NCBI RefSeq assembly: GCF_041260155.1
Contig: NW_027248395.1
Coordinates: 525,953 to 589,952, forward strand
Source of the DNA: Ptychodera flava
Lineage: Eukaryota; Hemichordata; Enteropneusta; Ptychoderidae
Reading direction: 5' to 3'
DNA: 64,000 bases
The translations under genes were made by a program, and so were the position numbers. Below are positions 25,181 to 64,000 of this stretch, in pieces. The notes under the pieces were generated by a model that was given only the letters and a program-made list of their open reading frames with translations, did not search any database and was not told where the DNA came from. Each line of letters begins with the position of its first letter. Within the stretch, counting starts at the first letter, position 1.

Positions 25181-25241
25181 TATAGTCCACAAGTCTCGCG
25201 AGACTTTGAACTCTCGCATTTTGCGAGATGTGTGGACTATA
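25181..25241. other. Nested hairpin at right end of Polinton A
   Basis: TATAGTCCACA (25181) pairs with TGTGGACTATA (25231-25241). The loop contains TCTCGCGAGA (25194-25203) and CTCGCATTTTGCGAG. Part of the right terminal repeat is therefore duplicated in inverted form just inside the end. Confidence 0.8.
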
Positions 25242-25258
25242 CCACAGCCATTACTACT
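25223..25258 (-). repeat. Polinton A right terminal inverted repeat
   Basis: Reverse complement of 847-882, ending ...CCATTACTACT. The flank ATGTAA resumes the satellite. Confidence 0.95.
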
Positions 25259-25410
25259 ATGTAAGACATGCTAGGTGTAATGGGTGCACACTCTTTCTTT
25301 CATTCCAGCAGTCAATGCATTGTGTTTTATAGCCGTAGGCTAGCTAGGATACCAGGTGCTAATTAGAATGGAGATAATTTATGCAAAGAAATTAATTAGT
25401 AAATGATGTG
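25259..25410. repeat. Satellite array, right part
   Basis: Same monomer as 1-846 (GTAAGACATGCTAGGTG..., then ATTTATGCAAAGAAATTAATTAG). It is the continuation of the interrupted array and ends here. Confidence 0.92.
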
Positions 25411-28875: not shown

Positions 28876-29575
28876 TCAAAATCCCGTGCCCGCGAAAACC
28901 CGACACAGTGTAGGGCGCCACCAGCGGCAGTACTAAAAATATTTGTAATGCGGAAGTAAGAATTTGCCAGGATCAAAAAAAAAAAAATTTCCAAATATGC
29001 CAAAGTAGAAGCGGCGATTCCGATGAACAATTTATTTTTTCTTCCTGGCCTTAAATGTAATAGTCAGAAACGAATACCGTCGCCAGAGAATAGAACAGAA
29101 GAGTATTAAAGATTGTAAAACTCGTCCAAAAAAAAAATTGTCACTGCTGATGTTTATTGAACACTTTATTCATTGACTTTTGAACTAGTTTTCGATATGG
29201 CGTATACAGCTGTTTTATAAGTGCTTACATGTAGTTGTACGCATTGTCCCGACATCATCAAAAGTTCACCCCTAAGCTGTTCAATGCTGTATATCACTAG
29301 TAAAATACTCAAACAAGTCGGACTTTACTCATGTGAAAATCCCTGTCAAAAGTGGCCGGAAAGCGATAAGTGACATGTCCACATCGCGACCAGCCGCTCG
29401 GTAAAACGCGCCTGGGAAGTTGACTTGCATGTTTCCTAAAAAGTAGTATTTACAATTTCTTTGCACACATAGGGAACCGGCTGGGGATATTCATCGTCGT
29501 AATAAATGTGCCTCTTTACGGCAGTAGCTAAGCGCTACCCGTTTTGGCGTAGGTCAGCGGAGCAGAAATTAGGCA
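28876..29575. other. Host non-coding DNA before the minisatellite
   Basis: No gene, RNA gene or clear repeat seen. Confidence 0.4.
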
Positions 29576-29765
29576 GACAGTCCATGTAGCCGACAATGAG
29601 ATGCTAATGATATGCAGAATGTACAAGTTTCAGGTTTCGTCGACCAACTTCCCCCTCTTGGGTACAACTTCAAACTCAGAAATACCAAGTCGGTGGCTAT
29701 TGCCTGTTACATAATTAAATAGCAAACTTGTGGAAGTTGACAAGTTCGTGGGACCCTCTGCCAAC
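29576..29765. repeat. Minisatellite leader, copy 1
   Basis: About 190 bp of unique sequence (CAGACAGTC...AATGTACAAGTTTCAGG...) directly before the array. It is repeated at 30639-30830 with roughly a dozen differences. Confidence 0.92.
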
Positions 29766-34740: not shown

Positions 34741-37104
34741 CCAGTGTCATCTATTATTGTCTTCACATTTACATATTTTTCGTGTAACCCCATGTTCGTG
34801 TCGGCTACATAGACTATCTGCCAGAAATTATGCTGTGGCTCGCGAAGATGGGGATATGGCGATTTGACGAAGTAGCTACAGGCCAGTCCGGCATGTTTAT
34901 GGAAGCATCGTGTGGGCATGGCACTTAGAAATCTACGTGGGACATTCATGTTCCCTAATGCCACGCTGCTTATTACAGTGAACAAGGAAAGACAAGATTT
35001 TACAGTCATGGTCTTTTCGACATCGTTTCAGAGCGGTCGGGTCGCCGATTACACATCGCTATGTACATGTTACATAAGTGAACAACTCACGTTCACAGAC
35101 TTGTTGCAAAACATCCGGCCTTGACTATCTTTCAGGAGGGGACGTTCACTTTATCTCATAATAATAATTAAAGAATGAAAAAATATGGACAAGGTCTGGT
35201 CTTTCATCCCAAGTTTTAGTTTAGAACTGATCAAAATCCTATGAATTGCATTTTCACTGCGATTTGCGGTTGAATTTCTTTGTGACTTGGCAACGACATT
35301 TTTGCATACTCCTGCTTTTTACCACTTCGTGAAAATGGTATCACCCATCCAACGCTATATGTACGTGTATCGATCATTATACAAAGAGAACGCATAAAAA
35401 AAAAAACGACGCTCGCGGTCATGGGTTCAAGGACATTCACAAGGAGACATCCTCTTCGAGTCTGTCACGGATATTTTACTAGTTTTGAAAACTTACAAAA
35501 GCCAGTGTTCGAAATTCGTGGGCATTGTAACCACCCACCAGGGCAGGTAACTTGAAAAAGTTGTCTTCCCGGGTGAAACTAACCCGTTCGGAGATGATTA
35601 TACCTCGCAGATCAAATGTAGTAAAATTTAAAAAACAAAACAAATAAAACTACCAGCAACAGACACTGTGCTCTCCATTGGTTTTATGTTCTGTTAGAAA
35701 AATTACGAATTTGGGTAAAAAAATAAACAGTGAGCACCAAATAAATCCAAGAGAATGTTGCCCCGTCAATTTATTACATTTTAAACCACGTGTCCTTTCT
35801 ACTCAGGTCTTGAACGGGAGCGCTAGCGACAAGGAAATGAGAATCAACTTACATCTCAATAAAATTTGTTTGAAAACCTAGAACTTGCATTTTGTCCTTT
35901 ACTTTTTTCACGTACGACTTTGCTCCTATGTCAACGTGATGGTACGCTAGTTTATATCTTATATCACGGGTGGAGGGACTGTGGTTATATGAGTCCGTAC
36001 CAGCTAAGTCAACGGTAATAATGTTGTAGAAAATGCAAGTGATTTCATCGGCGAACTGATTTTGCTTATAATTCCGTTTTATTTGTCAGTGAAAAGATCT
36101 GACTTGATGTTTCCGAGGTAGCCGAATTGGCGCACTATCTTACCGAGGCGCGAAGGCCAAGCTTGTCTGTCCAGTGTCCGTTTTCAAAATTATCTGAGCG
36201 CTCACCATGCACTGTGTTCAGAGAAGTATTACACAGTGGGACTAAACTGGTCACTAAAACGCTGGAAATTCATTCTCTGTGTGGAACAAAAAACTAAATA
36301 ATTAAATTAAACAAAAAACTAAATAATAAAATTTAACAACTGACATGCATTATGTTGAAAAATCCAGTTCTAAAAAATGAGCAATATCGCGGAAGTATTG
36401 ATACCGGTCATCAACTGCGCAACCTGTCAGATCGGGCATTTATAGAAGCAAACATGGCTACCACGCTCAGAAGTAAGCTTATAGCTTGTGACTACCGGTA
36501 TTTCGTTGCCGCTACGCAAGACGCCGCAGTGTAAAATACAATTCTGGGCTTCGGCAAAATGAGGCAGGTGTATGATCGTGCTGCCGTAAGGTGACTTATC
36601 CGACCGGGGAAAGATGACGAGATACGACAGAAGTTTTAATATTACAATCGAGGTACACCTCTATTGTATTACGAAGCACCGTTGCGTCTCTCCATGAGTT
36701 CGTGAGGGGACGGGTTGTCAATGTTAGTTCAAAGTAAAGAAATTCTGGTGTGAGAAAGTCATGTCGATGCGATGTGCAGTGATGTTTTTAAAGACCTATA
36801 CTGAGCAAGCTCCAGAAATAAATCTAAGATTAATTGCGCCCCTGAAGTATGTACGATTGCGTCGTTGTGTGCATTGTTACGTTGTACATGATTTTTGTGT
36901 ATTCGTTTCGGGAATTATCAAAGTCGGGAATGGAATATGCATGGTCATAAATGTCCGAGGCAGCTCATGAATGTGCACTTATAAAAGTACATGAACATTT
37001 GTTCTCCCAATCACATGAAGGCGCGACTTTGCACAAGTTTTAAATATCGGATATTTGCAATCTAGTATCAAAGTTTGACATATCGACGTTTTCGGGACTG
37101 CGGT
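34741..37104. other. Host non-coding DNA after the minisatellite
   Basis: No gene recognised. A 70-residue plus frame at 34912-35124 may be a diverged partner of 28504-28875. The region includes the right inverted-duplication arm (36390-36740). Confidence 0.4.
36390..36740. repeat. Diverged inverted duplication, right arm
   Basis: Partner of 26640-26960 in inverted orientation (see there). Confidence 0.68.
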
Positions 37105-46079: not shown

Positions 46080-46085
46080 GACATA

Positions 46086-46704
46086 AGTAGTAAGGAATAT
46101 TTCCTTTCCATGATAAATAGAATTTTACACCCATTTTATTCATTTATCTAAATGGGCGAAAGGAAAATTTAACCATCCATGTAACTAAAGTGCGACCCTG
46201 ACCTATATACGAACTCACTCACGCGCAGCAGCTTGCGCAGCAGTTCATTGTCCTGTACTCAGCAGGGAAATTCCCTGCTGAGTCATTCACATTCCAAATG
46301 GAACTTGCGCAATACAGTAGCTATGACTCACCCCACTGAGCAAAACAGAACGACATTCTATTCTCTCTCTCATTTGCTTAGATAGATTCTGACTGAGCCG
46401 TACAGGAGCTCTTACAAAGGCAACCCGTATCAGAACAGTTTCGAAGGTGCGGGTCTCGTTTCTGGATGTGAACTTTATCTGCTGACTGGTCCCTTTTCAC
46501 TATGTTTGGAGTCGTCGGAACACTGTTGCGCAATACCCCTATATCGGTACGTTTTCAGGCAGGAACTTTCCAGCAGGGAATTTCGCAATACCCCTACGGA
46601 ACGTTTCGCAATACCGACTTCAGTTGCTTAGTAACTTGTGATGTCATGTTCAATGTCTGTTATTCTACAGTTTTCAGAAAATTTTCTGTGGAATTTTTTC
46701 TGAA
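46086..46704 (+). repeat. Polinton B left TIR
   Basis: Matches the reverse complement of 62675-63290. It contains a perfect CTCAGCAGGGAAATTCCCTG-type palindrome near 46258-46283 and repeated GCAATACCCC blocks. Confidence 0.97.
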
Positions 46705-46734
46705 TCTAACTTTCATATCCATTCAATCCATAAT

Positions 46735-47143
46735 ATCGTAGATATCGCTCCAGCGGCGGACTAAATCCTTCTTGTTTTGTATTTCTAGCGCCTGATGAAA
46801 ATATCCTGAATAAGTTCTGACCCGTTTTCTGTTGTACCTTTTCTTGTATTTGTGTAAGCAGCTGTTTATATTGAACGTAATAATGCTTATATTTCTCTCG
46901 CTTTTTGATACTCCAGTTTTCCTTGTATTACATCAATAACAACACCAGGTATAGGAGTTAAGGCTAAAGAACTGGTACTGTAGGAATGGCTGCTATTACA
47001 GCAGAGCTTACAAGAATTCCTTTAGTAATATTAAGAGCCATATCAATTCGTCCCATCAATTTGTAACTTCGCCGATATGCGGCACTAGTTCTTTCGATAT
47101 AGTCAGCCAATTGTTCAACGCTTTCAACAACTGAGATGTGCAT
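46735..47143 (-). pseudogene. Small hydrophobic protein, Polinton B left end
   Basis: Begins MHISVVESVEQLADYIERTS and has a hydrophobic stretch ILVSSAVIAAIP, which suggests one membrane segment. The following coding-like text is basic and helical. No family function is known to me. It is divergent from the plus-strand gene at 47165, with 21 bases between start codons, so a shared bidirectional promoter is likely. It is broken. Confidence 0.45.
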
Positions 47144-47164
47144 TTTTTACTGTATATGTAAGGG

Positions 47165-48469
47165 ATGATAAAAAATAATTGTAGTAATATAGAAAGACAA
47201 ATGGCAGAAGGAGGAGAAGATATACCACTGCTGGATTTCGATGATGCTCATTTAAATGATGACGATGTTACTGCTGAAACATCTTTTACCGATGATACTT
47301 TTACAAACCCCGATCCTTCAATGGATAGTCCACAGGTGGATATTTTAATTAAACAGAGAAGAGAACTTACAAAATATAAGGCTGAAGAACTCTTAGACAA
47401 ATATAGGATTACTAATCCGGATGCACGAACCGAATTGATTTTAAATGCTGAGATTATAATGGTGACTGTATTATAAAGAAATCAGAGTTACAACAGATAA
47501 AGGAAGTAGATTTTTAGAGAGATCCACATTAAAAAAGAGGAAAGGAGGATATGAATTTGTAAATAAAGTATACAGTTTGAGTGGAGTCGAATATCACTCT
47601 AGCGCAGAGCCCGAATTTGTTAGTTCAACATTGTATTCTGAAGATGTGAAAAACGATAAAATACCAGCTGAGAAGATGACACCAGAAGACATGGGCATAT
47701 ACAAAGATGAACTGACATTCTTACGGCAAGATGCTTCTGGTAATGCAGACAAAATACAAGCTTTTGAAAATAAAATCGAACAATGGAACAATCTAAACCC
47801 CGAATATAGAGCTTTTGTTGATGAATTAAAGATGGCAAATATGCGTCTTGATGAGCTTTACAGTGAAAGAGATAAAATAAGGCTAGAGAAAAGAGAAGTT
47901 GAAAAACAGTTAAAGGAAATTCCTGAAGATCACACCCAAGGAAAAGAAAAAGCCAAGAAACTATTAGCTGAACTCATAACAAGAGAAGCTAAAATTAAAG
48001 ATCGAATTGAAGTACAACATGATATGATCAGTGGGACACGTGAAAGACTGGCGTCGACTAGGTCTCTTCGTGATGTAATTTCTGATCCAGAATTATCACT
48101 GAACTGAAGCTGACAGAATTATTTAAACGAAATGGTATTACAATCGCTGCAATACTGACTGCCATTGGAATGGCAATATCAACAATTGCCCTGGCTGTGA
48201 CTAAAGGAGGGGGAGCAGGAACTGGAGCAAACACAGGGGGTTCAGGCCCGCCCAAAGTATATACAAAAGCGAAAGAAATTGTAAAGCAATTTGGCGAATG
48301 GTTAAAAACCTTGGCCGCAAAAAGTGCTGCTGCAATACCAGGTTTAATCGGCTCCCTTGTCAGTTTTCTATTAAAAACAGCAGGATCGGTGGTCGGATTT
48401 GTTGGAGAACAGCTATGGATATTTTTAACTGGTTTAACATTAGTCATTATAAATAAAATTATGTATTAA
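47165..48469 (+). pseudogene. Acidic/coiled-coil/membrane protein of cnidarian-type Polintons
   Basis: The first part is acidic (MAEGGEDIPLLDFDDAHL). The middle (47577-48107) is a long charged coiled coil with LEKREVEKQLKEIPEDHTQG. The end has ITIAAILTAIGMAISTIALA, a Gly/Thr linker and a second hydrophobic pair (KSAAAIPGLIGSLVSFLLK, then LWIFLTGLTLVI). I recognise this layout from Polinton-like clusters of corals and Hydra, where it is an uncharacterised, probably virion-associated membrane protein. It is broken, with about two breaks. Confidence 0.6.
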
Positions 48470-48492
48470 TATATGGCCCCTACGGAATCGGC

Positions 48493-48837
48493 ATGTTTGG
48501 TGAAAAGAATATTGCAAAGTTTCTTTCTAAAAATAAAGACCTGTTTGGTTTCTCTGTCGAATTGGAATGGTGCAAACTTCGGCGGGTAAATCGACATATC
48601 CTTCGAGCAAATCCAGGTGTCCGACTCAAGGATGATAATCTATATCATAACATATTAGCTTTCGTGAAGGAATGTCAAAAGACTAACTTCTTTAAGCGAC
48701 TAGAATTCATAAACGTCTTTCAGGAGATTGACAATGATGAAATGGAAGTCCAACATCTCCAAGAATATTGGGTCCTTCGATTGATTCGCGACACAGGCAT
48801 CGATTTATCTTTCAGGCAGACGGAAATATTTACGTAA
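48493..48837 (+). CDS. Hypothetical 114-residue protein
   Basis: Uninterrupted frame MFGEKNIAKFLSKNKDLFGF..., helical and charged, with no motif I recognise. It follows the membrane protein and precedes the capsid gene on the same strand, so it may be a small virion or scaffold protein. The first ATG follows a CCCTACGGAA motif copy (48478-48487). Confidence 0.5.
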   Translation: MFGEKNIAKFLSKNKDLFGFSVELEWCKLRRVNRHILRANPGVRLKDDNLYHNILAFVKECQKTNFFKRLEFINVFQEIDNDEMEVQHLQEYWVLRLIRDTGIDLSFRQTEIFT

Positions 48838-48886
48838 AGATGTGATTTATTTTCTTTTTTCTTCTACTATATACATTACACGAAAA

Positions 48887-50158
48887 ATGGGGTACGATAG
48901 AACATTATTACCGACTTTCAGCAACCGAATACCGAAGGGAACGAAGTCAGAAAGAACTCATCATGTGATTGCTCATAATCCAAGTGAGGCAGATCCAGGC
49001 CAGACACTTATCATACGATGTCCAAAGTTAGAAAGCGGAGTAGTACTAGTTCCAGATACTTTCGACCTGGTTTTTGATCTCGAAGTAATGGGACATGAAG
49101 ATAACCGAGTAGTACAAAATGTTGCAAAAAATTTGGTGGAGCGTATGGTTCTAAAATTCGAGGGGCAGGAACTTCTCAATTTGAATAAATATAACCTTAT
49201 TGAATGTTATCGTGATCTCTTCAAACATAAAAAGGAGAGAACGAACATGACACTGTACGGAATTCAGAACGAAAATCTAAGAAAATTAAGAAGCGGCGCG
49301 GCCGATGCAAATGCCGACAGGCTTTCAAAATGGGACGATATTTTACTTTTCGACACATATAAAACAAAATATGCTATTCGTCTCACTCACCCCCTCATAA
49401 CAGGTCATGGAGTTGCATATCCAAAAGCGTTAGGGAGTCATATCGAATGGGAAATTACGCTTGCACCCGCCTCCCAATTACTTGTCAGTAATCAGGTTGT
49501 TACAGCCAATTATAAATTAAAAAACATTCAAATGGAATACGAAACAATTTCTGATTCCGTACTCGCGAGAGATACTGCTGGTTATTACATCAATGGGAAA
49601 GTTTTTCTCTACGAGCATATACATTATTCTAGAACAATACCATTCAAAGAATCGGACACGGTTATCAATGAAATGTGAATGTACCACGACGTAGCATTAG
49701 AGGTATCTATTACTCTTCACTAAAAATCAGAATCAGACAGAACTGAACAGTGAACTTTTCTTTAACCCCTCCATTGAATCTGTGTCTGTAATGATTGAAG
49801 GCATTGCAAATAAAGTGTACGCTCAGAAGATGATACCAAGACAATTTTGGCGAGAGGTGCGACGGTATTTTGCTGAAGATAAAGATTGGTGTGAAATTGA
49901 TATAGATGAAGTTGATTATTTGAAGAATAAATTCTGTCTGTTTATCGATCTGCGTAGTTTTAAAGATATTGAGTTTCATGGAAATGGTTTAAAAGTAATG
50001 AACACAAAGGACGGAATTCAACTTGAAATTCTGAAGAAAGACACCTCAGTTAAGGGTGCCGACGACGCTCGCGATGACAATATATTTGCCCACGTTTATG
50101 TTATTAGCGATGCCCAGGTCACTGTTGAAAATAGTAGATTAAAGTCTTTACAATTTTA
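48887..50158 (+). pseudogene. Major capsid protein, Polinton B
   Basis: The N-terminal part has PDTFDLVFDLEVMGHEDN, MVLKFEGQELLNLNKYNLIE and CYRDLFKHKKER, typical of the first jelly roll of capsids in this lineage. Then come TYKTKYAIRLTHPL and GSHIEWEITLAPAS. The C-terminal part keeps ENKFCLFIDLRSF-like text, FHGNGLKVMN and HVYVISDAQV of the second jelly roll. Length is near 420 residues. It is convergent with the polymerase gene. It is broken, with about one or two breaks. Confidence 0.72.
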
Positions 50159-53100
50159 AACCCGTCCGTCCTATCGGCCATGTTTCTGCCAACCATTCGC
50201 CCGTGTCTGGATTGTATAACTGCACACGTTTGATATCATTTGGCGCCATCATAATTTTACTACGCTTTTCACTATGGATTTCTCCAGCCTTTTTCCGTAC
50301 AAACTGTACAAACTGTGCCGGCTCGGGCTCCTTCCCAGTTTCAAACAGATCTTTATAATCTTCAAAGTTCAAATGTTTTCTAACACAAACATCTTTCACC
50401 CCTTTATTTTTTTTCGTCTCCGAAGTTGGAGTTCGAAAAGCATACACTTTCGAGCGTATGCCGACAAAATCAAGAATAGGTTCACCATTCAACTCATCTT
50501 TAAATTTACCTATCACTTTTTTATTAATCTTCGGAAAGTTGGGGGCTATGCGGAGCTCATCCCACTAGTATCATATATAGACTTCTCACCATTCTTTTCA
50601 ACATCTTCTCGGACTATATCATTGAAAGTTACGTCCGGGTCCGGGATCGGTACACTGTAAACAAAACTGTCAGTATCCATGTAGGCTAATCGTATTCCAG
50701 GGAACGTGTCCAGAAAGTAATTGTAATGCGTCTCATACATAAGCAGCTTAGAAAGTTCAAGCACCGCCGCACCAATGAAAACTGGTTTTACATATCTATG
50801 CTCATCCGTTTTCAGTTCCAGTAGGGCACTGTCGCAGGAATCACCATCCTCTTCGGAAGTTATGAAAGTTATATGTTTCATCTTTGGATTATACTTCTGA
50901 ATCTTTTTACGTCCACTATCCGTGCCCCTATCGGAACGGTTCAGTCCGAAACAAATTTAAAGTCTCTGTACTTTCGAACATCTTCTATTGTCTTACCGAA
51001 CATTGCATTATTCATCAGCTTATAGAAATTCTTTTCGAAATCTGTCCTCCCCTTTGTCCTCATTTTAGTGTTAAAGTCAATATATTTCGCGAGACATGGA
51101 GCTTCATCGAAAGCAAGCACCCGATAAATCTTTTTCAATCTCATTCCCATCCGAAGATAGAATTCCAGCAACTTGTAGTGTAAGACATAGGACTCTCTAT
51201 CCATCACACTTGTAATCAGTCGACCGCCCTGCCTCGGAAATTCATAGTGATGCGGCGCTAATGGTAAATCCGAATGTTCTTTATGTAATTCGGCCGGATA
51301 TTCTAGATCTACTTCTAGAAAACTTGGCGGAAAGGTGGCGCCAGGTCCCCAATCAAATCCTGCTCCGTCATTCTGAGCAGACCATTCTAACAATTCTTCC
51401 ATCGTCATCCAATGAAGTCCGCCCGTAGGCATTGCCTGACTCATTGCCCAGCCGTAGAGATTGTTTGCATCGAGATATTTTATTTCGGTCACTGGTTTCT
51501 CAGGGTCATAACTGGCGCCGGCGTCAGCGATGGCCGGATGATTGTCTTTAAGTAATGAATATTACACTGGCTGATACCACCTCGTATTCCCCTCTGAACG
51601 AATTTCATCTGCTCAGCATCTTGAATGAGCCCAATTTATTACCTGTGTAAAGTAACATAGCATCCCATGTCAAGCCAGGTGCCGACATATAGTGGGCTGG
51701 ATCTAACTTGTATGCCTTAAACATGTGTCGCGGAAATTTTCGAATATATTTGCAAGAAGGAGAACGTCGGTCTCACAATAGAATTCCATATAATCTTTAA
51801 TCGTCTTACATCCCACTTTATCCCACACCTTCAATGCATGCTCATAATCAGACTCTGAAATCCCCTCTTCCGTCAATTCGCTATAAAATTCCCCCCTCTC
51901 CGGGAGCTCACCCTCTTCTAATCGCTCGAGGGAAGTCTAAATATTCGTAGGGGAAAAACCTTTCGCCCTTTGAATGTCCGGGTACAAAAGTGGTACTGCC
52001 GTCCACCCATCCTCCGGCACAGTCGTTGCCAACTTCGCTAGCGACCCCATCATCAACTGAGCACTATCCATAAACTTTATAGAAAAGAAACGTTTCTTTA
52101 TCTCCCTCCCCCCTCCAGCGACAACAATTGAGGCGTGAAAATAAATGTTTTCGAGAGACCCATAATTCCACCATTGCTCGTCTTAGCTATTAAATTTGGC
52201 TCTTGTCCGGGACCATCATCTATTTCATGTAACTTCTTTCAAAATAAAAGAACCATCGTATCCCTTGAGGTTGTGAAAGTAGATAGGAATGGTTCTCGAC
52301 GGTCGACATCCCTCGCAATAAAAAGTCGTTCCGTCCCTCGCTACTCGGTATCCGGCGGGCTCTCCACATGCAATACAGTCTGGATCACATCCGTCACGCT
52401 GGTAATTAGAAGGATCTTTCATAGCCACAATTTTCCAATAATACGATTTCGAATAATACTCGGCCCTTTTCTTCATATCTTTTAGAAATTCTGTAACACA
52501 GGAGAGCCCGTGAATGTTCTTTTACCATAAACAGTGGGCCGGCCCGTTCCGAAGGCGCCCCACCCCCGTTCCACCATAACATACGAAAGACAAATTGGAA
52601 TGTGCCGGCCAGTGCCCCGCTCAATAATTGCTTCAGTATCTGCATAGATAACGTAGGGACAGGGCACCTTCTTCTTATGCCCTCGAATTGACATACTTCC
52701 TTAGGAAAAACTGGCTGGGCGTCGTCTGTTCCACAGTACACCTGATGTATTTTCTAATTCTTCTGTTGACTTAAAACCTCTTTTACAAACCGGGCAAATA
52801 CACTTACTTCTGTGCTTATTCTTACGATTAGTATTAGAATTAATAAGGCGATTTAACGCAAGTAATTGGAACGAAGTGGCCGCCGCCGTCTTCGTCAACT
52901 ATCAGTAAGATATTTGCTACTTGATCCGTTCCGACAGGGGCTACACCACTATATAACTGTATTATACAGATGGATCGGGATCATTTTCGTAGATCTGAAA
53001 TACTTGAAGTTTGACCCCTGGATTTTGCTGCTCGAAGCGCTTGAATATAGTCTTATCAGCGGGCGTGGGAAATGGTATTCCACCCCAACAGTAGTCGGCC

Positions 53101-53651
53101 ATAAATTTGTCGTACGTCTTCCAGTTTTTCTAGTCTGACCACATTTCTTTTCACGAAACGCGGGATCAGTTAACTTTAGACTTGCTACGACGGCGTACTG
53201 GAAGCAGTTCTCGCTACCGAAAGGAAGAATAAGATCACTCACACAATGCTTATTTTTTAACCATTCAGGTAGTTGAATCGAGCCAGCCCCGAGTAAAACT
53301 TCTACTAGAATTACTTCGAAATTAAGTATCTCCTCGAGAACGAGACCAGAACCCTCAACATTTTCAATTGTTTCAAGCATATGGTCGTAGCGATCTATTA
53401 ATTGTTGTTTCACATCCGATCCTCTTGTGTATGTATCTTTTAATTTAACAGGCAATGTACGATTTTGTGTATTACCAGTTTTCGGATCCGATAATTTGAC
53501 TTCCATTTCAGTATAAACAGAGTACATCTTTCGGCCCCTTTGACCATACCTTCATATCCACCAGCTCCCTGATATCCTTGACTCGCTTGACTTCAGGAAA
53601 TTCTTTTAGTAAAACTGCTCCCTTGAATGCTGCACGTAATCGACGGGCCAT
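50148..53651 (-). pseudogene. Protein-primed DNA polymerase B, Polinton B
   Basis: Pieces in family order on the minus strand: an N-terminal domain (VEGSGLVLEEILNFEV, LPEWLKNKHC), a CPVCKRGF zinc knuckle, exonuclease text with YVIYADTEAI (Exo I, DTE) and IYFHNLKGYDGSFIL (Exo II), motif A IKYLDANNLYGWAM, a FYKLMNNAMFGKTIEDVRK segment (motif B), and motif C LAYMDTDSF. These define a protein-primed family B polymerase that copies the linear element from its ends. The normal size is about 1,000-1,200 residues, which fits the span. It is broken, with about six breaks. Confidence 0.85.
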
Positions 53652-53702
53652 AATAATCTTTATGATATATACTATGATAAAAATTTTCTTAAAAGAAAAT
53701 AT

Positions 53703-54432
53703 TTATTCTAATTCATCAAAATCCACTATAATATTTTTGGCAGCATTTATTTGTTTATATATCTCACCTAATCTTTCTAAGTCGACTAGTTCTTCCGCAT
53801 CTTGAATTTCTGGTTTATTAGGCGCAGCACAAAATAACCTCTCAACAGTGAAAGAAAGAGCACGCTTACTTAAGCGCGGTTTAAATGCTAAGAATTCTAT
53901 CTTACTACCTTTCCTGATATTACGAGGTACAATAGCAGGATTTTCTCGGACTGGCAATGGGCTCACTGTTTTAAAAGCACAGTCAATTTCTTTAACCATA
54001 TCAATACATGTAGCGAAATCAGAAGCCCCTCTTTTAAACTGAAATTAAAATACGCAACTGGCTGCGCCCCGCGCTTCTGATACACTTTAGATGGATTGTA
54101 AAATCCAGTCTTGGAGTGAGCGGTCAGGCTTGCAGCATAACTTTTAGCAGTAGATGCATCGAAACTTTCACCTAGGGTACGGAATATTATTAAATCGGTA
54201 AACTTTTGAAGACTCGGTTGCCAACGGACACACACCCCATCGCATGTAGCAGGATCTCTAGAACCGTACTTAGGTCCGATGGATGGGGAAAACCACTTCT
54301 AGCTCACTGTCTACGTATATGAAAGGATCTACCAATGATTCACCAAATATGAGTTTCCTCGTCACTGATTTGAATATTCTCTTCTCCGGTTTCAAGTATT
54401 TTTATTGCAGTTGAAATAGAAAGGATTGTCAT
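53703..54432 (-). pseudogene. Conserved hypothetical protein upstream of polymerase
   Basis: Contains FRTLGESFDASTAKSYAASL, HSKTGFYNPSKVYQ, AYFNFSLKEG and, at the C-terminus, acidic/helical text ending IIVDFDELE. It probably starts at MTILSISTAI (54432). I know of no function. The position next to polymerase on the same strand suggests a replication or terminal role, which is inference. It is broken, with about three breaks. Confidence 0.45.
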
Positions 54433-54499
54433 TGTCTTATCGTATATATCTTAATAAAAAAAAATCTTTTTTAAAAATTTCTATGATATAGTACCCAAA

Positions 54500-55667
54500 A
54501 TGTCATACATATTCATAAATGGACCAACTGGAAGTGGTAAGAGCTACGATGCAGTAAATTTGGCTGCGACTCACGTACCAGAATTTGACACTAGTTTTTC
54601 TAGCAACATTGCTGACTTTTATAATGGGCGCTCCACGTTTCGATTGCCGATTTTCAGAACCAGTTTATAGAACATACTCTTAGTTTACAATGTCAGGCTG
54701 GGCTCCCTTCGGAACGCTACATTATTTGTGACTCTTCCATAATTCAACATCTAACTTTTTCTCGAATCCGAGGCGTTTCCACGGAGTGGGAAGAAAAAAG
54801 ATTGTTTCTAGAGCATTTGACCATTTACATAGTTTCATTATCATATTCAAAGATATGCCTTGGGATTATTGCAGGCGGAATGTGTTGACTCGAGCCAGGT
54901 CGTACGAAATAGCCGCCTTAAAAGAATTAGAAGAGATTCACAACAAGTTCAAACAGACTTTCTTAGAAATTTGTAACGACTACAGACTTCCATGTTTGGT
55001 AATTCGGAACGCTCTTACGCCCCTCGTTCTCAAGAATATACTTAATCCAACGATTGATACAGAGACAGTCGGGCCAGTAGATTTTCCACAAGCTTTTGAC
55101 TTTGGAATTGCATGGAGCGGCGGCAGCCAAGGATTTTTAATAGACGGTTTCAAGGAGGAGGAACTTGAAAAAGCGTACTTCCCACCTGGTCAAGAACAAC
55201 TAGAACAACCTCGAGTCTCACTCAAGAACCTACACAAACTTCTTAACGCTTGTGAATCTGTGTGTGCTTATAATGCTCCGTTTGACTTACGGGCACTTGA
55301 TATGATGAAAAGGGTGGACTTTGGAGTTACTTGTCTATGGTTCATGTCAGTTGTGTACATTATACTTCAGCCAGAACTTATCGATAAAGCTGAAAAAGGG
55401 GCGCTCGAAAGAACGGACCGTGGCAACATGAGAAGTCGCTTTGAAGATCTTGCAAACTTAATATGTTCAGGAACTGAGATACCACCTCATCCACATACTG
55501 CCGAAAAAGATGCAGTAAGTAAACATTACATTACGACAGTACATGCATACGTAAATACTTGGCCAGGTGGTTGGAAGCGGGGTGGTAAACTGACACTTTC
55601 GGCTTTCAAGAAATTAAGACTTTTTCCATGGTACTTACTGAATAACTTTCGTAAATACTTACGTTAG
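54500..55667 (+). pseudogene. P-loop kinase-like domain joined to a DEDDh exonuclease
   Basis: Starts MSYIFINGPTGSGKSYDA with a Walker A loop, followed by text with RYIICDSSIIQHL reminiscent of viral deoxynucleoside kinases (weak). The 294-residue frame from 54786 holds a DnaQ-type exonuclease: IDTETV (D91, E93), AYNAPFDLRALD (D167) and HTAEKDA (H237, D242), the complete DEDDh set. Such an enzyme would trim 3' ends or proofread. The nucleotide-metabolism part would feed replication. The kinase-like part is broken (about two breaks); the exonuclease part looks whole. Confidence 0.65.
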
Positions 55668-55740
55668 TACTTGCGTAGTACTTGACAAGTACCAGCACAG
55701 GAACTTACGAAGTACTTACGTAGTACTAATAACATTTTCC
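55668..55740. repeat. TACTTACGTAGTACT microrepeat
   Basis: About six variants of (G/A)TACTTACG(T)AGTACT in the convergent spacer between the exonuclease and integrase genes. Many are self-complementary. It could act in transcript ending; no AATAAA is seen here. Confidence 0.6.
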
Positions 55741-56811
55741 TCCGGCTCCCAACTATTGAAACTTTCTGGATAACCGCGCCATTTTATCAGATAATATTTC
55801 TTTCCTCTAATTTTTTTCGTCTTCAAAATTCGTTCTACTCTGTACACTCGTCGGCACCTTCCGAAGGGCGCTCTGAAGTTCATCAGAATAGAAAGTGCCG
55901 AGTATTTCCTCTCCATTCAGATCTTTTATCTTATAAACTGGTGGCGTTCCCAAGCCAGCTGCGTACACAACTTTTGAAACCACGAAAATCTCCTCTGTCC
56001 AATTTGGTAAATATCCTTTCTTAAAAGTGGTCTTGTATTTTGTAATTCGAACCCGTTCTCCCGGCTTGAATTCAGGGTTAACTCCCCCGGCTGCCAACTC
56101 AGGACCGAATAGTGTATAAAATGCCTGCCAATCGTTGTCCTCCGTTACATCGACTGGTTTCATTTTGATACTTCCATGAACGGTGTTGTTGTAATTCTCG
56201 AGAAGTTCTGGTAGAATAGAAAGCCATTCTCGTGTCTGTTTATATGTAAAGTATTTCCACATCATCGTCTTGAGAGTCCGATTAAAACGTTCAACAACGC
56301 TAGCTTTTTTGTCACTGTAGGTGTGAAACCAGTGAATGGAAGACTCCTCCAACCATTTCTGCATTTTCTGATTAGTAAATTCCCGTCCCTCATCTGTCTG
56401 AAGTTTGTCAGGTTTCCTCCCGGATTTCTTAATTATGTCTTGTAGCGCCTTCAGAGTGTCATCGGCCGTTTTTGACTGTATTGGCCTAGCCCAGGCATAT
56501 TTACTGAGTACATCGATTACTGTTAGCATGTATCGAATGTTACGGTTCTCTTTTAGGAATGCTGCAGGGAATTCCACGAGATCCGCTTGCCACTGTGAGT
56601 CTATCGATGATACGAAAACGCGCCTCCCACCACGAGTACGAGGTACCGATTTATGTAGATTATAAGTTAGCTGAGTTTTTAACCAGTCCTGTACCTCTTT
56701 CTTAGTAATTTTTAACCCGCTGGCCCGTGCTGCGTCATACAATTTTTGTACACCTCCAAAACCAGTTTTCGGGTTGTAATATAATTCTCTAAGAGTGCCT
56801 TCAGCTTCCAT
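55716..56811 (-). pseudogene. Polinton B integrase with chromodomain
   Basis: N-terminal helical region (YYNPKTGFGGVQKLYDAA), then a DDE core: QADLVEF (D77), LQTDEGREF (D140) and KASVVERFN (E174), with 33 residues between the second Asp and Glu. VRITKYKTTFKKGYLPNWTE follows, a PPVYKIKDLNGEEILGTFY linker, and then a chromodomain (VYRVERILKTKKIRGKKYYL, IKWRGYP, FNSWEPEENV). It inserts the element and explains the 6-bp duplication. The gene is nearly whole, with about one break. It lies 10 bases downstream of the ATPase gene on the same strand. Confidence 0.92.
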
Positions 56812-56821
56812 AATTGCTATA

Positions 56822-57427
56822 TTATACGAAAAATTTTATGTCGTACGGATGCTGAAAATTAAATACTAGTTTACTGAATTTTATCCTTTTCAATTGCTTG
56901 ATTAGGCCCACGGCTTCCCGTTCTGTCATCTCCATTCCATGTTCTTTTATAATAGTTTTGTTGTCTTCCTTGTTCGGTGCGTAAATTAGTACTAACATCT
57001 TTATGTTTTCCCTGAATGGTTTACTAATACTAGTATATTGCTGAGTCAGAACCCAGACAGATAGTCCGTAGTGTCTTGCGCTGAAACCAAGTTGGACTAA
57101 AATGTCACTGCGCTTCTTCATATCTTTGGACGAGGCGCAGTCGTCGAGTACTATTAAAGTGTTCGTGCCGGCCCATTCGTCCCTTACGTAGGTTAATGTA
57201 ATATCCACTGCATCGAGTCCGACTGGAAACACAAACACATTATCATCTTCGAAAATGAATCTTCTATTATACGTTTTATTAATCATGAATGTTGGGCAAA
57301 TGAAAACTATATATTCGAATTTCCTTAAGTACGGACCGGTGAGGAGGTCCAACATAAATTCTGTTTTGCCAGAATCTGTCGGTCCATTTATAATCATGTT
57401 GAATGGCGGGGTATCGTATATTGACAT
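56822..57427 (-). CDS. FtsK/HerA-type packaging ATPase, Polinton B
   Basis: 201-residue frame, looks whole. Walker A GPTDSGKT at residues 15-22 follows FNMIIN. Walker B LIVLDD is at 91-96, with CASSKDMKKR after it. A VWVLTQQYTSI sensor region and a C-terminal FNFQHPYDIKFFV end are present. It is a short A32-like motor that packages the element DNA. It lies between the integrase and the large structural gene on the minus strand. Confidence 0.9.
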   Translation of the reverse strand: MSIYDTPPFNMIINGPTDSGKTEFMLDLLTGPYLRKFEYIVFICPTFMINKTYNRRFIFEDDNVFVFPVGLDAVDITLTYVRDEWAGTNTLIVLDDCASSKDMKKRSDILVQLGFSARHYGLSVWVLTQQYTSISKPFRENIKMLVLIYAPNKEDNKTIIKEHGMEMTEREAVGLIKQLKRIKFSKLVFNFQHPYDIKFFV

Positions 57428-57469
57428 TTCCTCTGGATCTATATATTGTAAATAAATGTAATGATATTG

Positions 57470-58817
57470 CTAAAGATAACAAACCAATTTTTCCGAATTC
57501 GTGAATAGGGTCTGCAGATGCTGCCCGTTCCCGTTCCGAAGGCGGGGAGGGGAGGCCCCCCGAGTCGTGTCATTGTGAGGTGACTCTCCGGGCTCGTCTT
57601 GCCACTTCACAAGATCCTCCCCTCCTTCCATCTCATGTACAGCACTTTCTCGAACTTCCGTGTTTATATCACCGTTCACCCCGAAGACCATAGATTCAGT
57701 TGCATATTGCAATTCATTATTATAACCTGAGATTGCCGGGCCCGAAAGAATGACCATCTCAGACGGTAAGAGAAGTAAATTGGGCGAAACTGCCATATCA
57801 AGTTTGACACCAGTATTCATTATTGTGTCTTGATATCGCCTATAACTGATTACTTTGTCGGTATTACGAATTTCATCTTCGAGGAGAACGCCGAATTCTT
57901 TTCTTACTTGCACTGCACTGCCAGTATCACCTACTATGGTACTACGAATATTAGCTTGTGCACCGAGTATGCAATATACGTAGGCTTCAAGGCTTTCATT
58001 GAGGCGGGCTAGGCCAGCCTTTGTTAGTCCCAAGTCTCCCGTCAGAGGAATGAAACTATTATATTGCCCCTCCGATCCATCATTTCTGAAGAAATAATAG
58101 TGTGGTCGGTCTTTGGTCGGGCAGTACATGTTTTTTCTTTCCAAAAATGGTATGTGTATAGAAAACGCCTCCATCGGCGGAGAGGAAAAAGTCGTGACCA
58201 TTGTATATTGCTTTTGGCTGTCGAACGGGCCCACGATTAGTGTAATATTCATAACCATAACCAAGACCTGAGTTTTGACCTTTTCGATATCGAAAGTCGG
58301 ACTTCGTGGGACTTATATTTCCAAATTCTGTACATAGAAGTTCATATTGGACGAGATTGTATGGATTGTCGCCGGCTTTGAAGGTGGGGGTATCGTCTGG
58401 AAGTGCAACGCCCATTTCATGAAGAATACGACGTATTGTAAAGTATACATGGAAACGGCAGAATGATCGTATTTGCGGAGGAAATTTCCCTTCGGAACCA
58501 AAGAGATGGGCGAATGATATACCGCAACCAGTAGTGCTGCACCATACGGCGAAATTTAATTGCTGGTCCCAGTATTTCATGTTTGGTCCGCCCAGCCAGA
58601 CATTACTTTCTTTAGCTGATCGATGAGTGATTACGTTATCTTTAAATATATCCCGTGGATGAAAAGTAAATTTTTCTGTCGGCGTTACATATATTTCTAA
58701 GTCCATGAGAATAGGTTTTATTCCTCCATTCGGTTTGGAAGGAATATCAGCATGCTGTACTGTCGGTACGCTCGTCTTATTCAATTGAAAAGCAACTGGG
58801 AATGCGTCTGTACTCAT
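57470..58817 (-). pseudogene. Large conserved structural-type protein of Polinton B lineage
   Basis: Starts MSTDAFPVAFQLNKTSVP and has NVWLGGPNMKYWDQQLNFAV, WCSTTGCGISFAHL, RFHVYFTIRRILHEMGVALP and later ARLNESLEAYVYCILGAQAN and SGYNNELQYATESMV. I recognise it as a conserved protein of cnidarian-type Polinton clusters without a known function. Its size (about 450 residues), beta/helix mix and abundance suggest a virion component. The C-terminus is acidic and Pro/Gly-rich. It is broken, with about one break. Confidence 0.55.
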
Positions 58818-58848
58818 TATTCGTGTTTCTATATAAAGATAGATTTAA

Positions 58849-59844
58849 ATGGAGGAGAATTTTCCCGGAATCCCTGTCGGAATCGTACTAACATTCCAGA
58901 CCATGTTAATATTATATTTCGGATTCAGGTTTAAACGAATTTTTTATTTTTTACTAAGAATAGATAACATACTGCAAACAATGGAGAATTTAATAAAGTC
59001 ATCGGCAGCGCAAATACGCGTTCCGAAGGGCTTCGGTGGCTTCGACGCTCGATCCATAATAGAAACAAAACGTGAAAAAATACTCTGGGCCATCGCAAGT
59101 GGTCAAAGTAAGTTATTTTTGGTAAGGAGATTTCAATTGCTGACGTAGAAAAATGGGAAGATGAAACGGTGAATAAAGCATTTAAAGTCTATGAAGCGAA
59201 ATACAGTTCTCTTATAAGTGATACCATCACTCAAAGTTTCATAGATCTAGGAGCCCGTGCAATAAGTCAGGTAGTTCCAATCGATGATCGAGATAACTAT
59301 GCCACTGATCTTAAAAAGGATTTTATTCTAAACAGTGAAATAAAACGATTATCAGGACGGATAGCCTACACATGGGGACCCATACTTGCTCTAGTTTCCA
59401 CCGGTTTAATTACGGGTAAACATTTAAATTTTAAAAAAATCGGGTTTAATATAGTACCTGAAATAAATGGATTCAACTTCGCCGACTCAGCAAACGCTTC
59501 CGCCAGGGACTCCGTCAGAAGCCCCGCCGACGGGGCCCGGACCAGAAACGACTCCGTCATGGACGACCTTACCTACGCCACAGCGCAACATAGAGAAAGC
59601 GACGTTACCGCCGAAGCATCCAGGGAGAGTTGCTGCAGGGAAGCGACTAGCGGAATGGAACAGGTGGAAGAAACGTCAAGCAATGAAGGGGGAGGAGGGG
59701 AGTGATGCGGTAGCGAGTCCCCTCTCTCTGGACCCCTCTCAGAACGGTTCCGACAGGGTTCCGGGGGAGAGGTACCACAACAGTGTGATAGCTCACGCGA
59801 TAGCTCACGCGATAGCTGGTATAATAAATGTTATCTTGTTTTAG
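58849..59844 (+). pseudogene. Membrane/basic-tail virion-type protein
   Basis: The first text has a hydrophobic helix (VGIVLTFQTMLILYFGF) and then MENLIKSSAAQIRVPKGFGG. The middle part shows VPIDDRDNYATDLKKDFILN and AYTWGPILALVSTGLITG. An overlapping frame carries LPPKHPGRVAAGKRLAEWNR, a basic GKRLAEWN motif I know from minor proteins of this Polinton lineage. The function is unknown; DNA or capsid-interior binding is plausible. It starts 31 bases from the divergent gene at 58817. It is broken, with about two breaks. Confidence 0.45.
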
Positions 59845-59849
59845 GAATT

Positions 59850-60044
59850 GTGGGAGTTTCATTGACTGCATTAGGGCTATATTGGGGGCGTGCTCGTCAT
59901 ATTTGTCCAGATCGGAAAGATGAACCAAATCAGAAAGCGAAAAAAACAGAGCACGTAGCAGCTCCATCCGGAACAGTTCCGACAGGGGTTCCGAGGGGAG
60001 GGGAGGGGGGACCCAGCTCCTCTACATTGTATGAGATGGATTAA
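59850..60044 (+). CDS. Small single-span membrane protein
   Basis: 64 residues: one hydrophobic helix (MGVSLTALGLYWG) and a charged Lys/Glu tail, ending Pro/Gly/Ser-rich. It may be the C-terminal part of the preceding gene rather than a separate protein. The last third is created by GC-rich motif copies (59967-59998). Confidence 0.3.
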   Translation: MGVSLTALGLYWGRARHICPDRKDEPNQKAKKTEHVAAPSGTVPTGVPRGGEGGPSSSTLYEMD

Positions 60045-60096
60045 CTCCCCCATATTTTTTATTTTTATTTTTTATTTTATATACTAGTCAGCAATC

Positions 60097-60375
60097 ATGG
60101 ATACTAAAACAGTTGTAAACACAATGTACGATGGTATTGTAATCGCAGGACTTGCGATGGGATATCTTATGATCTCCAGCAAATTTCTGAAAATAGAGGT
60201 TGGCGATCCAAGTCGACCAAATTTGACTCGATTGGCAAAATTAGGCGGTGCGACTGCTGCCGCGGTTGCAACAAAGATCTACTTGAACAGAAAAATATTA
60301 TTCCTGCAGAACCTTATACTTTGTAATAATAATAATATTCATCGAACACTTATACTTAGTAATATATACATATAA
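60097..60375 (+). CDS. Small membrane protein of Polinton B lineage
   Basis: MDTKTVVNTMYDGIVIAGLA opens a transmembrane helix (IVIAGLAMGYLMI), then KIEVGDPSRPNLTRLAKLGG and a second weak helix. The first 70 residues look like a family I associate with this lineage; the last 20 (NNNNIHRT) look non-native. Function unknown. Confidence 0.45.
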   Translation: MDTKTVVNTMYDGIVIAGLAMGYLMISSKFLKIEVGDPSRPNLTRLAKLGGATAAAVATKIYLNRKILFLQNLILCNNNNIHRTLILSNIYI

Positions 60376-60383
60376 CGTACAAC

Positions 60384-61103
60384 GATGATCATTTGGATTG
60401 AAAGCGAAACAGGCAAACCGTTACTATGTATTTAACCCTTGCATTGACATATCAAAGTTTACGAAGATAAGACTGCTCGAGTGTTCACTCTTTAACTCAT
60501 GGTATAACATAACGAGGACGAATAGTATATTAAAATATCAAGAAGGTGGACAACCGAAGAAGTCTATAACAATACGTCCAGGTAACTACAATATCAATAC
60601 ACTCAACAAAGCCATCGGGTTGAAGCAAAAAATTAATTTTGAAGAACATATGCCGACAAACCGCGTTCTTCTAACTTTGGCTAAAGATGTTAGAGTATTT
60701 TTTAATGCCACAGGTAACTTCGCTAACCTCGTCGGCTTTTCAGAAAAAATGAGGACAACCCCGTGTAAAAAAGTACTATAAGTCCAGGTCAAGCAGATTT
60801 CTTAACAGTCACTAAATACATAGTTCATTCAGATGTTGTTGATATTACTGGAAGTTATGTTTCATTTGGTCTGGCGAATACATACAGGGGAAAGTATCGG
60901 ACCGTTTACAAATACTTCCCATTCGGGAAACAAAACGAATAAGTGAAAAGGTCACTTATGATTTTAAAAACGGCTCAATTTCCGTGCCACTGAGAAAGGG
61001 GGGAGGCTTGATGGATTCAATGCGTATTTGGATAACAGATCAGGATGGGAAGATGATCGATTTCAATAACTGGCCAGTCACCTTTTGTATTGAATTATTT
61101 TAG
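60384..61103 (+). pseudogene. Penton/minor capsid-like protein, Polinton B
   Basis: Contains YVFNPCIDISKFTKIRLLEC, SLFNSWYNITRTNSILKY and a SITIRPGNYNINTLNKAI segment, the pattern of single jelly-roll minor capsid proteins in this lineage (a FNPxIDLSK strand, then SWYN). The downstream part has KGGGLMDSMRIWITDQDGK and NNWPVTFCIEL. It would cap capsid vertices. It is broken, with about two breaks. Confidence 0.62.
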
Positions 61104-61185
61104 CCGGCGAAGCCTGTCGGAACGGTTCCGAAGGGGGCCTACCAGAAGATAAACCATCCCACGACCAATCCTCCAGCAATATAGA

Positions 61186-61551
61186 TCATCTCATATTTCT
61201 TTTGCTCAGACTGGGTTGATAATAATCTGAGAATTGAACTGGCCTTGACGTAGAGTTGCTTTGCACCGCTTCTGCTTCTTCCAGGATTTCTGCATCTGTA
61301 TCTCTTAATTCTGCCGCAGCATGCGCGTCCTTTGCCTGATTTTCTCTTTCCCAGTCAGCCTGGAGTAATCTTTTTTCTGACCAGACGTTGCGATCATGTT
61401 CAAATTTTTCTAATGCTTTATCATGTCGGACCTTTTCTTCAATAAGAGCGTCACCATTCCCAGAAAGCTTTTGTCCGATAATATTTCCTCCTGTGAATGC
61501 CGTTGCATTTAATACAGCACCGAGAACTGTCATTCCTATAGCTGAAGCCAT
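61186..61551 (-). pseudogene. Lineage-specific helical protein (FTGGN family)
   Basis: MASAIGMTVLGAVLNATAFT followed by GGNIIGQKL, then a charged helical coiled part (KALEKFEHDRNVWSEKRL) and PVQFSDYYQPS. I recognise the GxALxxxxFTGGN start and the SDxYxPS end from a protein common in cnidarian-type Polintons. It probably has a hydrophobic N-terminus and a coiled stalk. It appears truncated relative to the family. Function unknown. Confidence 0.5.
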
Positions 61552-61605
61552 GATTGTGTATATTACAAGGTATTATTTTAATTTTCACTGTATATAGGTC
61601 CCGTA

Positions 61606-62440
61606 TGTCTGGTCCAGGTCTAGGTACAATTCGTATGCAAAATCTTGAGCTTGAAGATCTGAGTGATGTTAAAGTTAACAATAATACTAAGATGGCTGCT
61701 AATCATAATAAGGATTACGTCCTTCGTTACAAGGACCGCGAAAAATATTTCGTTTTAGCCAATGCCGCGGCGCCACCCCACGAGCATGCTGTGAATTTTC
61801 CGAACTTACAGACATTGATGAAACCGTAATTGACGCCACAAAGGCTTCGAATGATCCTACTCCTTTTGCACTGACATGGAATTCGGCTAGTCAGAAATTC
61901 ATGCCTTATAATGTACCGCGTAACATCTTAGATATATTGGATAGTGAAATTAGTGGTGGAGTTACTGAACTGCCAGGAACTCCAAATGTTATTTATTTCG
62001 ATAGCAATGTTAACAAGTACAAGTTGTTAGATTTTCGTAGTTGGCTTACTCCTAAGAATCCATACATTGCACTTCTTGGTATACCGATTCACCTTAAAAT
62101 TAGTCCTCTTAATACAATAATGAAGGCAGATAATACACTAAGAAGGTGGATAAACGAGGGGGAGAATTATTGCTCGTATACAGCTAGCGGAGTTCCAGTT
62201 AGATTATTTTGGGACACAACTTTAAAGAAACTGGGTCTGAAAAGTGTGGGGGAGGAGGTGGCTGAATTAAATTTACAGACTGTAAATCAACAGATGACTG
62301 ATAATATGAAAATAATTGAGCATGGTACAGTTGTTATCAAATGTATAAAATTAGGTACAGGAGATGAGTTTGATGATTTAGTTGGAAATATTGCTTTAAA
62401 AACAGACTCAAGAACACCTTGCACTATTTCATAACTATTG
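61606..62440 (+). pseudogene. Uncharacterised beta-rich protein, right end of Polinton B
   Basis: Starts MSGPGLGTIRMQNLELEDLS. The second part (61901-62434) has YNVPRNILDILDSEISGG, KYKLLDFRSWLTPKNPYIAL and GVPVRLFWDTTLKKLGL. No family known to me; fibre- or receptor-type virion protein is a guess from its terminal position and beta-rich look. It is divergent from the gene at 61551. It is broken, with about one break. Confidence 0.4.
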
Positions 62441-62674
62441 ATAAAGATAAAAAAGATTTAGATATTTTACTCGTACTCCGGAAGAAAGTAGTTCCGGCAA
62501 CATTTCATTTGTTAAAAAAGATACAACTACTTACACTTTAGATATCAGTACCATTTATCTAAAACGTCTCATATTGTTTGAAGTAATGGTCTTCAGACAT
62601 ATTTAAGTTCGGAGGAAAATTCTAAAATTTTATCTATCGGGTGAACAAGTTCGTACCGATAGGAACTAGAGTCG

Positions 62675-63290
62675 TTCAGAAAAAATTCCACAGAAAATTT
62701 TCTGAAACTGTAGAATAACAGACATTGAACATGACATCACAAGTTACTAAGCAACTGAAGTCCGGTATTGCGAAACGTCTGTAGGGGTATTGCGAAATTC
62801 CCTGCTGGAAAGTTCCTGCCTGAAAACGTACCGATATAGGGGTATTGCGCAACAGTGTTCCGACGACTCCAAACATAGTGAAAAGGGAACAGTCAGCAGA
62901 TAAAGTTCACATCCAGAAACGAGACCCGCACCTTCGAAACTGTTCGATACGGGTTGCCTTTGTAAGAGCTCCTGTACGGCTCAGTCAGAATCTATCTAGC
63001 AAATGAGAGAGAGAATAGAATGTCGTTCTGTTTTGCTCAGTGAGGGTGAGTCATAGCTACTGTATTGCGCAAGTTCCATTTGGAATGTGAATGACTCAGC
63101 AGGGAATTTCCCTGCTGAGTACAGGACAATGACTGCTGCGCAAGCTGCTGCGCGTGAGTGAGTTCGTATATAGGTCAGGGTCGCACTTTAGTTACATGGA
63201 TGGTTAAATTTTCCTTTCGCCCATTTAGATAAATGAATAAAATGGGTGTAAAATTCTATTTATCATGGAAAGGAAATATTCCTTACTACT
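62675..63290 (-). repeat. Polinton B right TIR
   Basis: Inverse of 46086-46704 with about ten differences. It ends CCTTACTACT before GACATA. Confidence 0.97.
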
Positions 63291-63296
63291 GACATA

Positions 63297-63691
63297 AATG
63301 AAAGTTATTTGAACTGGTTGGTTACTGCTCCAGCATAAGTTCAAGTGTGGATTCTAAGTATCAACAACCCTGATATGAAAGTGAATTAAGAATTAGAGAT
63401 GGGACTCAATAGGATCAACAATATCTAAAACAGGAAACGGTGAACTTATATAATACAGAAGAGGAGAAAATTTAGCCAATGGCTAATCTAAACCAAATTA
63501 CTTAAACTGGACTGTTGGCATTGATTACACATGTATTTATTGTCAATCATATAGAAAATAAATTTGGGCCATTGACTAAAAAACATTTGCTTGTTACACT
63601 CACCACACTTGTTCTTAGTATTTGGAGTGTACACCTATCTACAATACAATGATAAAAGTTTGGACTCTGTAGGTCAACAGTGCATCTTTAA
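63297..63691. other. Host non-coding DNA
   Basis: AT-rich. No gene or repeat recognised. Confidence 0.4.
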
Positions 63692-63965
63692 TGTGTGAGA
63701 CTAAACAAGCTTACCCCTCAAGTATATATAGGCAAAGACAATATTTAATTTTGAATTATGTAGTGCAGGGAAGGACATACAATATGGTGAAAAGCAAATT
63801 AAATATAAAAACGGAATATACAATTATATGTGTGAGACTAAATAAGCTTACCCTCAAGTATGGATAGGCCAAAGACAATATTTAATTTTGAATTATGTAG
63901 TGCAGGGAAGGACATACAATATGGTGAAAAGCAAATTAAATATAAAAACTGAATATACAAATATA
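63692..63965. repeat. Tandem duplication, 137-bp period
   Basis: TGTGTGAGACTAAA occurs at 63692 and 63829. The copies (ending ...TATACAA(T/A)TATATG) differ at only a few positions. Confidence 0.95.
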
Positions 63966-64000
63966 TGGAAATGTTGTTTTACAGTCATGAGTATCTGGTG

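Follow-up and report, generated by a model that had tools for sequence, protein, structure and literature searches.

The window analyzed here, a 64,000-nt stretch of contig NW_027248395.1 from the hemichordate Ptychodera flava, contains a bounded element of the Polinton/Maverick class, Polinton B (hereafter B), which spans positions 46086–63290 (no strand assigned) and is delimited by terminal repeats and a target duplication. The arms of its terminal inverted repeats are 619 and 616 nt long and 98.551% identical across 621 columns, and the element is directly flanked on both sides by GACATA (46080–46085 and 63291–63296), a 6-bp target duplication. B is a Polinton because it combines in one element an integrase core (PF00665 match, 5.6e-15), a chromodomain just behind this core in another frame (2e-14), an A32-type ATPase (PF04665 match, 3.3e-14) and a DNA polymerase B (PolB) of the viral/organellar type (PF03175 match, 9.1e-10). 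It had been described as AT-rich, which holds only mildly, with a GC content of 40.3% vs 42.0% in the rest of the window. Many of its frames are broken, and PolB is disrupted at many places. The terminal repeats (46086–46704 vs 62675–63290) show nine differences, seven of them single-base indels, so that part of the frame breakage in B may be due to assembly error; in the sequence, such errors and an indel-rich decay look alike, and the breaks may come from either. Programmed frameshifting, considered for the breaks near 50925 and 55859, was rejected because PolB is also broken elsewhere and because of the predominance of single-base indels among the terminal repeat differences.

A GC-rich motif recurs throughout B. 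The first-pass annotation of this DNA reported two decamers, TTCCGAAGGG and TTCCGACAGG, as occurring five times each, and exact searches of the whole window returned the same counts, with all the occurrences within B (TTCCGAAGGG at 54705, 55859, 58488, 59021 and 61126; TTCCGACAGG at 52929, 58873, 59748, 59977 and 61113). The former appeared at most once in any of 100 shuffles (mean 0.07), and the latter had the same mean in shuffles, with a maximum of 2. Matches to GTTCCGAAGGGG or GTTCCGANAGGGG that had no more than one mismatch were counted as close copies, the core being GTTCCGA(N)AGGGG. B contains 12 close copies, of which 11 are in its interior, at 10 places (59745, on the minus strand, and 59747, on the plus strand, are two arms of one place). 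No close copy was found in bases 1–46085, around 46 kb that include another element, Polinton A, in agreement with the earlier failure to see the motif there. Order-3 Markov interiors of B had a mean of 0.14 close copies and a maximum of 2 in 300 runs, and the top decamer of the real interior scored 25.4, vs a best score of 18.6 among 200 simulated interiors. When TTCCGANAGGGG was searched in the whole window with up to two mismatches, there were 17 matches vs 10.6 expected, a number reached by 2 of 100 shuffles; the excess thus fades at two mismatches, and its strength lies in the close copies. These results show that the motif excess in B is real. It is improbable that it merely reflects a few functionless GC-rich words multiplied in this element by local duplication or conversion, plus chance: copies 59742 and 59971 do resemble a local duplication, and no relative shows conservation, but eight dispersed close places are left after removing the cluster at 59.7–60.0 kb, against the simulated mean given above. 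Separately, a strand-polar motif guiding a translocase was rejected, because the close copies face both directions (seven plus, five minus).

The common unit has ca. 13–18 nt, and appears both as half-sites, on either strand, and as two-arm palindromes. In an alignment of 16 rows anchored on GTTCCGA, this sequence is followed by an optional base and by AGGG(G), and often preceded by GAAC, the start of the second arm; the conserved columns correspond to the core and to this start, the conservation of the core being partly built in because the rows were selected by it. Site 61113 has an exact two-arm form, and 59742 and 50925, as previously annotated, have a less perfect one, as does 59967; weaker forms lie in both terminal repeats. 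Centres of the GAACNGTT type occur six times in B, two of them being the terminal repeat pair, and once in the rest of the window. The 15 positions originally listed were mostly recovered, except for 48932, which is beyond two mismatches of either form, while 48478, 55859 and 58872 need two mismatches. The copies are as follows:

46426–46449, plus strand: two degenerate arms in the left terminal repeat, each with two mismatches; one base differs from 62929–62952.
46591–46602, minus strand: half-site with one mismatch in the left terminal repeat, disrupted at the corresponding place of the right one.
50925–50943, minus strand: exact half-site plus imperfect second arm, in PolB, sense; the PolB interval has 47 nt more than in L013, a relative described below.
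52546–52557, plus strand: half-site with one mismatch, in PolB, antisense.
52928–52940, plus strand: exact half-site, antisense within PolB; alike to 50924–50943 at 18 of 20 nt.
54704–54715, minus strand: half-site with one mismatch, apparently intergenic.
55858–55869, plus strand: half-site with two mismatches, antisense within the integrase gene, where it lies in the linker preceding the chromodomain.
57533–57552, plus strand: copy with one mismatch, within a GC-rich island close to where open frame 57470–58312 ends.
58487–58498, minus strand: half-site with one mismatch within open frame 58080–58844, sense.
58864–58889, minus strand: copy with two mismatches just upstream of open frame 58080–58844; 23 of 26 nt match 59741–59765.
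59020–59031, plus strand: half-site with one mismatch within the plus-strand open frame 58849–59148.
59718–59776, plus strand: longest form, a two-arm palindrome extending into a long imperfect hairpin.
59961–60003, plus strand: imperfect copy with two arms and, after them, a second TTCCGAGGGG; it shares 29 identities with 59742–59772.
61109–61139, no strand assigned: two-arm palindrome in convergent intergenic space.
62929–62952, minus strand: counterpart of 46426–46449 in the right terminal repeat, likewise with two degenerate arms.

Each terminal repeat also contains a 27-nt palindrome, ACTCAGCAGGGAAATTCCCTGCTGAGT, with 13-nt arms and one centre base (46257–46283 and 63094–63120), and a half-copy of it, CAGCAGGGAATTTC, is found at 46571–46584. 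This palindrome includes a kappaB-like match. NF-kappaB-like sites (GGGRNWYYCC) were considered and rejected, as they are not enriched: in B they are limited to the palindrome of both terminal repeats, and there are four in the rest of the window. Searches for Rfam families and tRNAs found none.

Hand reading of the frames placed copies 50925, 52545, 52926, 55859, 57533, 58488, 59020, 59742 and 59967 in open coding text, in sense and antisense orientation and in different frames, and copies 54705, 58872 and 61113 at or between gene ends. This bears out the initial impression that the motif occurs both between genes and inside coding text, and the diversity of frames and strands of the gene-internal copies indicates that peptide constraint, the explanation that had been named as its possible refutation, is not the cause. 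Between the convergent stop codons at 61101–61103 and 61139–61141 there are 35 nt (61104–61138), almost all of which belong to the 61113 palindrome; the second stop, on the minus strand, is read in a frame-broken gene. The position of this palindrome would suit hairpins acting at the transcript level, for instance as 3′-end signals of the element's genes, as would the folding of 59750 at −27.2 kcal/mol (z of −3.66 vs mononucleotide shuffles). Nevertheless, a z of −2 or lower was reached in only 5 of the 30 folds (both strands of 15 sites), and most copies are internal to genes or lack the second arm, making such a role very unlikely.

As our preferred reading, at somewhat less than an even chance, we tentatively propose that a sequence-specific DNA-binding protein, probably a dimer, recognizes the copies as cis-acting sites scattered through the element, which would work like the palindromes of the baculovirus homologous regions (hrs). 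The arm GTTCCGA(N)AGGGG would be the half-site, and two arms around GAACNGTTC would form the full palindrome. The protein, either of the element or of the host, would be recruited to many points by sites spread across the element and its terminal repeats, whatever gene hosts them, with an action akin to an enhancer or as an aid to replication or packaging; protein binding, the dimeric state and the purpose of the sites are inferred. We base this reading on the motif excess and its restriction to B within the window, the two-arm forms, the short core, the occurrence on both strands and in several frames, and the copies in the terminal repeats, features that also fit the binding or packaging signal suggested in the first-pass annotation. 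It is likewise based on the 61113 palindrome nearly filling its convergent space and on the flanks beyond the core, which are in sum no more alike than shuffled ones, since among 300 shuffles their summed likeness was reached in 27% for the right flanks and in 18% for the left ones.

As described in PMC2834656, hrs consist of imperfect palindromes of 28–30 bp that are bound by IE1, and half palindromes can be bound too; they are orientation-independent and contain replication origins. The resemblance to B lies in imperfect palindromes, alike in length, that are scattered through the genome of a DNA virus, and B has such palindromes at several places (61113, 59742, 59967, 50925 and both terminal repeats) in addition to half-sites. 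There are also differences, because hr3, according to the same source (PMC2834656), has three palindromes clustered in 651 bp, whereas B contains single copies, many of them gene-internal. Additionally, no IE1-like protein was identified in B, and binding and enhancer action are putative.

The motif was also looked for in elements other than B. Within the window, Polinton A has integrase pieces that match those of B with 43–64% identity. Neither Polinton A nor L002, L013 or L014 contains a copy with up to one mismatch, and L002 contains two copies at two mismatches. L002 is nearer to Polinton A than to B and therefore tells only that an A-like element is devoid of the motif. It corresponds to positions 4419–25266 of JACCHT010000004.1, filed under a metagenome-assembled genome of a bacterial symbiont of a Bathymodiolus mussel, and has Polinton A-like genes, including two integrase-like copies; this contig probably represents DNA of the host that was filed as bacterial. 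L013 (G135:C174) is a 3.9-kb contig from a genome assigned to the mussel symbiont's class, is probably eukaryotic DNA too, and contains a 1138-aa open frame like Polinton PolB, to which two pieces of the PolB of B match with 45% and 39% identity. Five protein scans of viral contigs (with the integrase, open frame 58080–58844, the PolB piece, the ATPase and the integrase alignment) confirmed no relative of B; of three DNA-pattern scans of the same kind of contigs, two gave no matches and one identified a single contig, L001, at about chance level and with no convincing protein match to B. In the family to which the L002 genome belongs, the integrase of B had matches in 11 of 83 genomes, mostly weak and transposase-like, and whole-genome searches with the PolB piece were positive in 0 of 83, 1 of 369 and 0 of 398 genomes. 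Neither the ATPase nor the motif was found in the L002 genome (0 of 1).

Outside B, exact inverted ends of 36 nt occur at 847–882 and 25223–25258, with similar tandem-repeat DNA outside them (1–780 and 25260–25406), and these ends are possibly the borders of Polinton A within a satellite array. A long tandem-repeat array, partly inverted, occupies 29573–34742, in a region (30–35 kb) whose GC content of ca. 0.50–0.53 exceeds that of its surroundings. Just beyond the right end of B, at 63688–63967, sequence is duplicated in tandem at a step of 137 nt, with 94% likeness across 145 columns.

Several observations weigh against cis-acting sites for a DNA-binding protein. The half-site has an optional extra base, present in 7 of the 16 aligned rows and absent from 9, which is unusual for a strict site, and motif copies contain three of the nine positions at which the terminal repeats differ, speaking against a strong constraint there. 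A copy occurs at only one of the three convergent or near-convergent gene junctions inspected, we identified no binding protein, and the searches of viral contigs and genome sets found no close relative of B to show that the sites are kept. The other adverse points favor the principal alternative, by which the copies are short mobile GC-rich palindromes that inserted at tolerant places (linkers, gene ends and intergenic DNA) and then decayed, like the GC clusters of yeast mitochondria. In particular, the flanks are GC-rich (0.50 vs 0.41; 0.0018 of draws), one right-flank pair (57533 and 59976) is closer than chance (0.007), and some copies are alike beyond the core, such as 59742–59772 and 59971–60003, with 29 identities, or 58864–58889 and 59741–59765, with 23 of 26 nt. 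Moreover, the three motif-bearing intervals of PolB have 27, 8 and 47 nt more than in L013, vs a span of −78 to +26 for the other 19, and a sum of differences this large occurred in 7 of 1540 permutations (0.0045), which favors insertion; the test is, however, weak both ways, because its 23 anchors, delimiting 22 intervals, were picked by hand after viewing the alignment and because the relative is distant. On closer reading by hand, the additional 27 nt near 52926 are situated away from the motif, and a BLAST search with this PolB piece alone gave no significant match by which to check this placement; the interval of 52545 has just the 8 extra nt, and the integrase linker with a copy is of normal length (25 nt in B vs 24 in Polinton A and 21 in L002). 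Of the four coding copies open to comparison, 50925 alone is thus clearly longer where the motif lies. The flanks as a whole are not alike, and neither a target duplication nor an empty site was established for the motif copies; with evidence on both sides, we consider mobility of the copies doubtful. For the parallel drawn in the first-pass annotation with palindromic elements that invade genes, the evidence is mixed: the longer PolB intervals and the likeness of some copies beyond the core speak for it, and the lack of summed flank homology and the normal length of the integrase linker speak against it.

The palindromic elements of Rickettsia are longer and constitute in-frame inserts of bacterial genes; the copies in B are also palindromic repeats inside coding sequence, but they are short, occupy several frames and are mostly without a shown insertion. 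The yeast mitochondrial cluster GC42 is described in PMC4478555 as a 42-nt, full-length unit with an AG target and a presence that varies among strains. B shares with these clusters the scattering of short GC-rich palindromes through AT-richer DNA, although most of its copies have in common only the core of 13–18 nt, and it is a nuclear-type mobile element instead of mitochondrial DNA.

Among the papers listed for Polintons and Mavericks, including those on palindromes, promoters and conserved motifs, no title or abstract opening mentions a motif of this type in Polintons. Little is known about the activation, replication and packaging of Polintons. Returning to dispersed protein-binding sites, the broader proposition that B represents a Polinton lineage with its own palindromic sites in genes, intergenic DNA and terminal repeats, an hr-like cis system recognized by a regulator that acts as a dimer or by a protein for replication or packaging, appears to us rather unlikely when taken in full. 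If true, a lineage-specific palindromic site present in both the ends and the interior of the element would serve as a DNA bait for its protein and as a marker of the lineage between genomes. Mobile copies, by contrast, would mean that a virus-like nuclear element has its own counterpart of the mitochondrial GC clusters.

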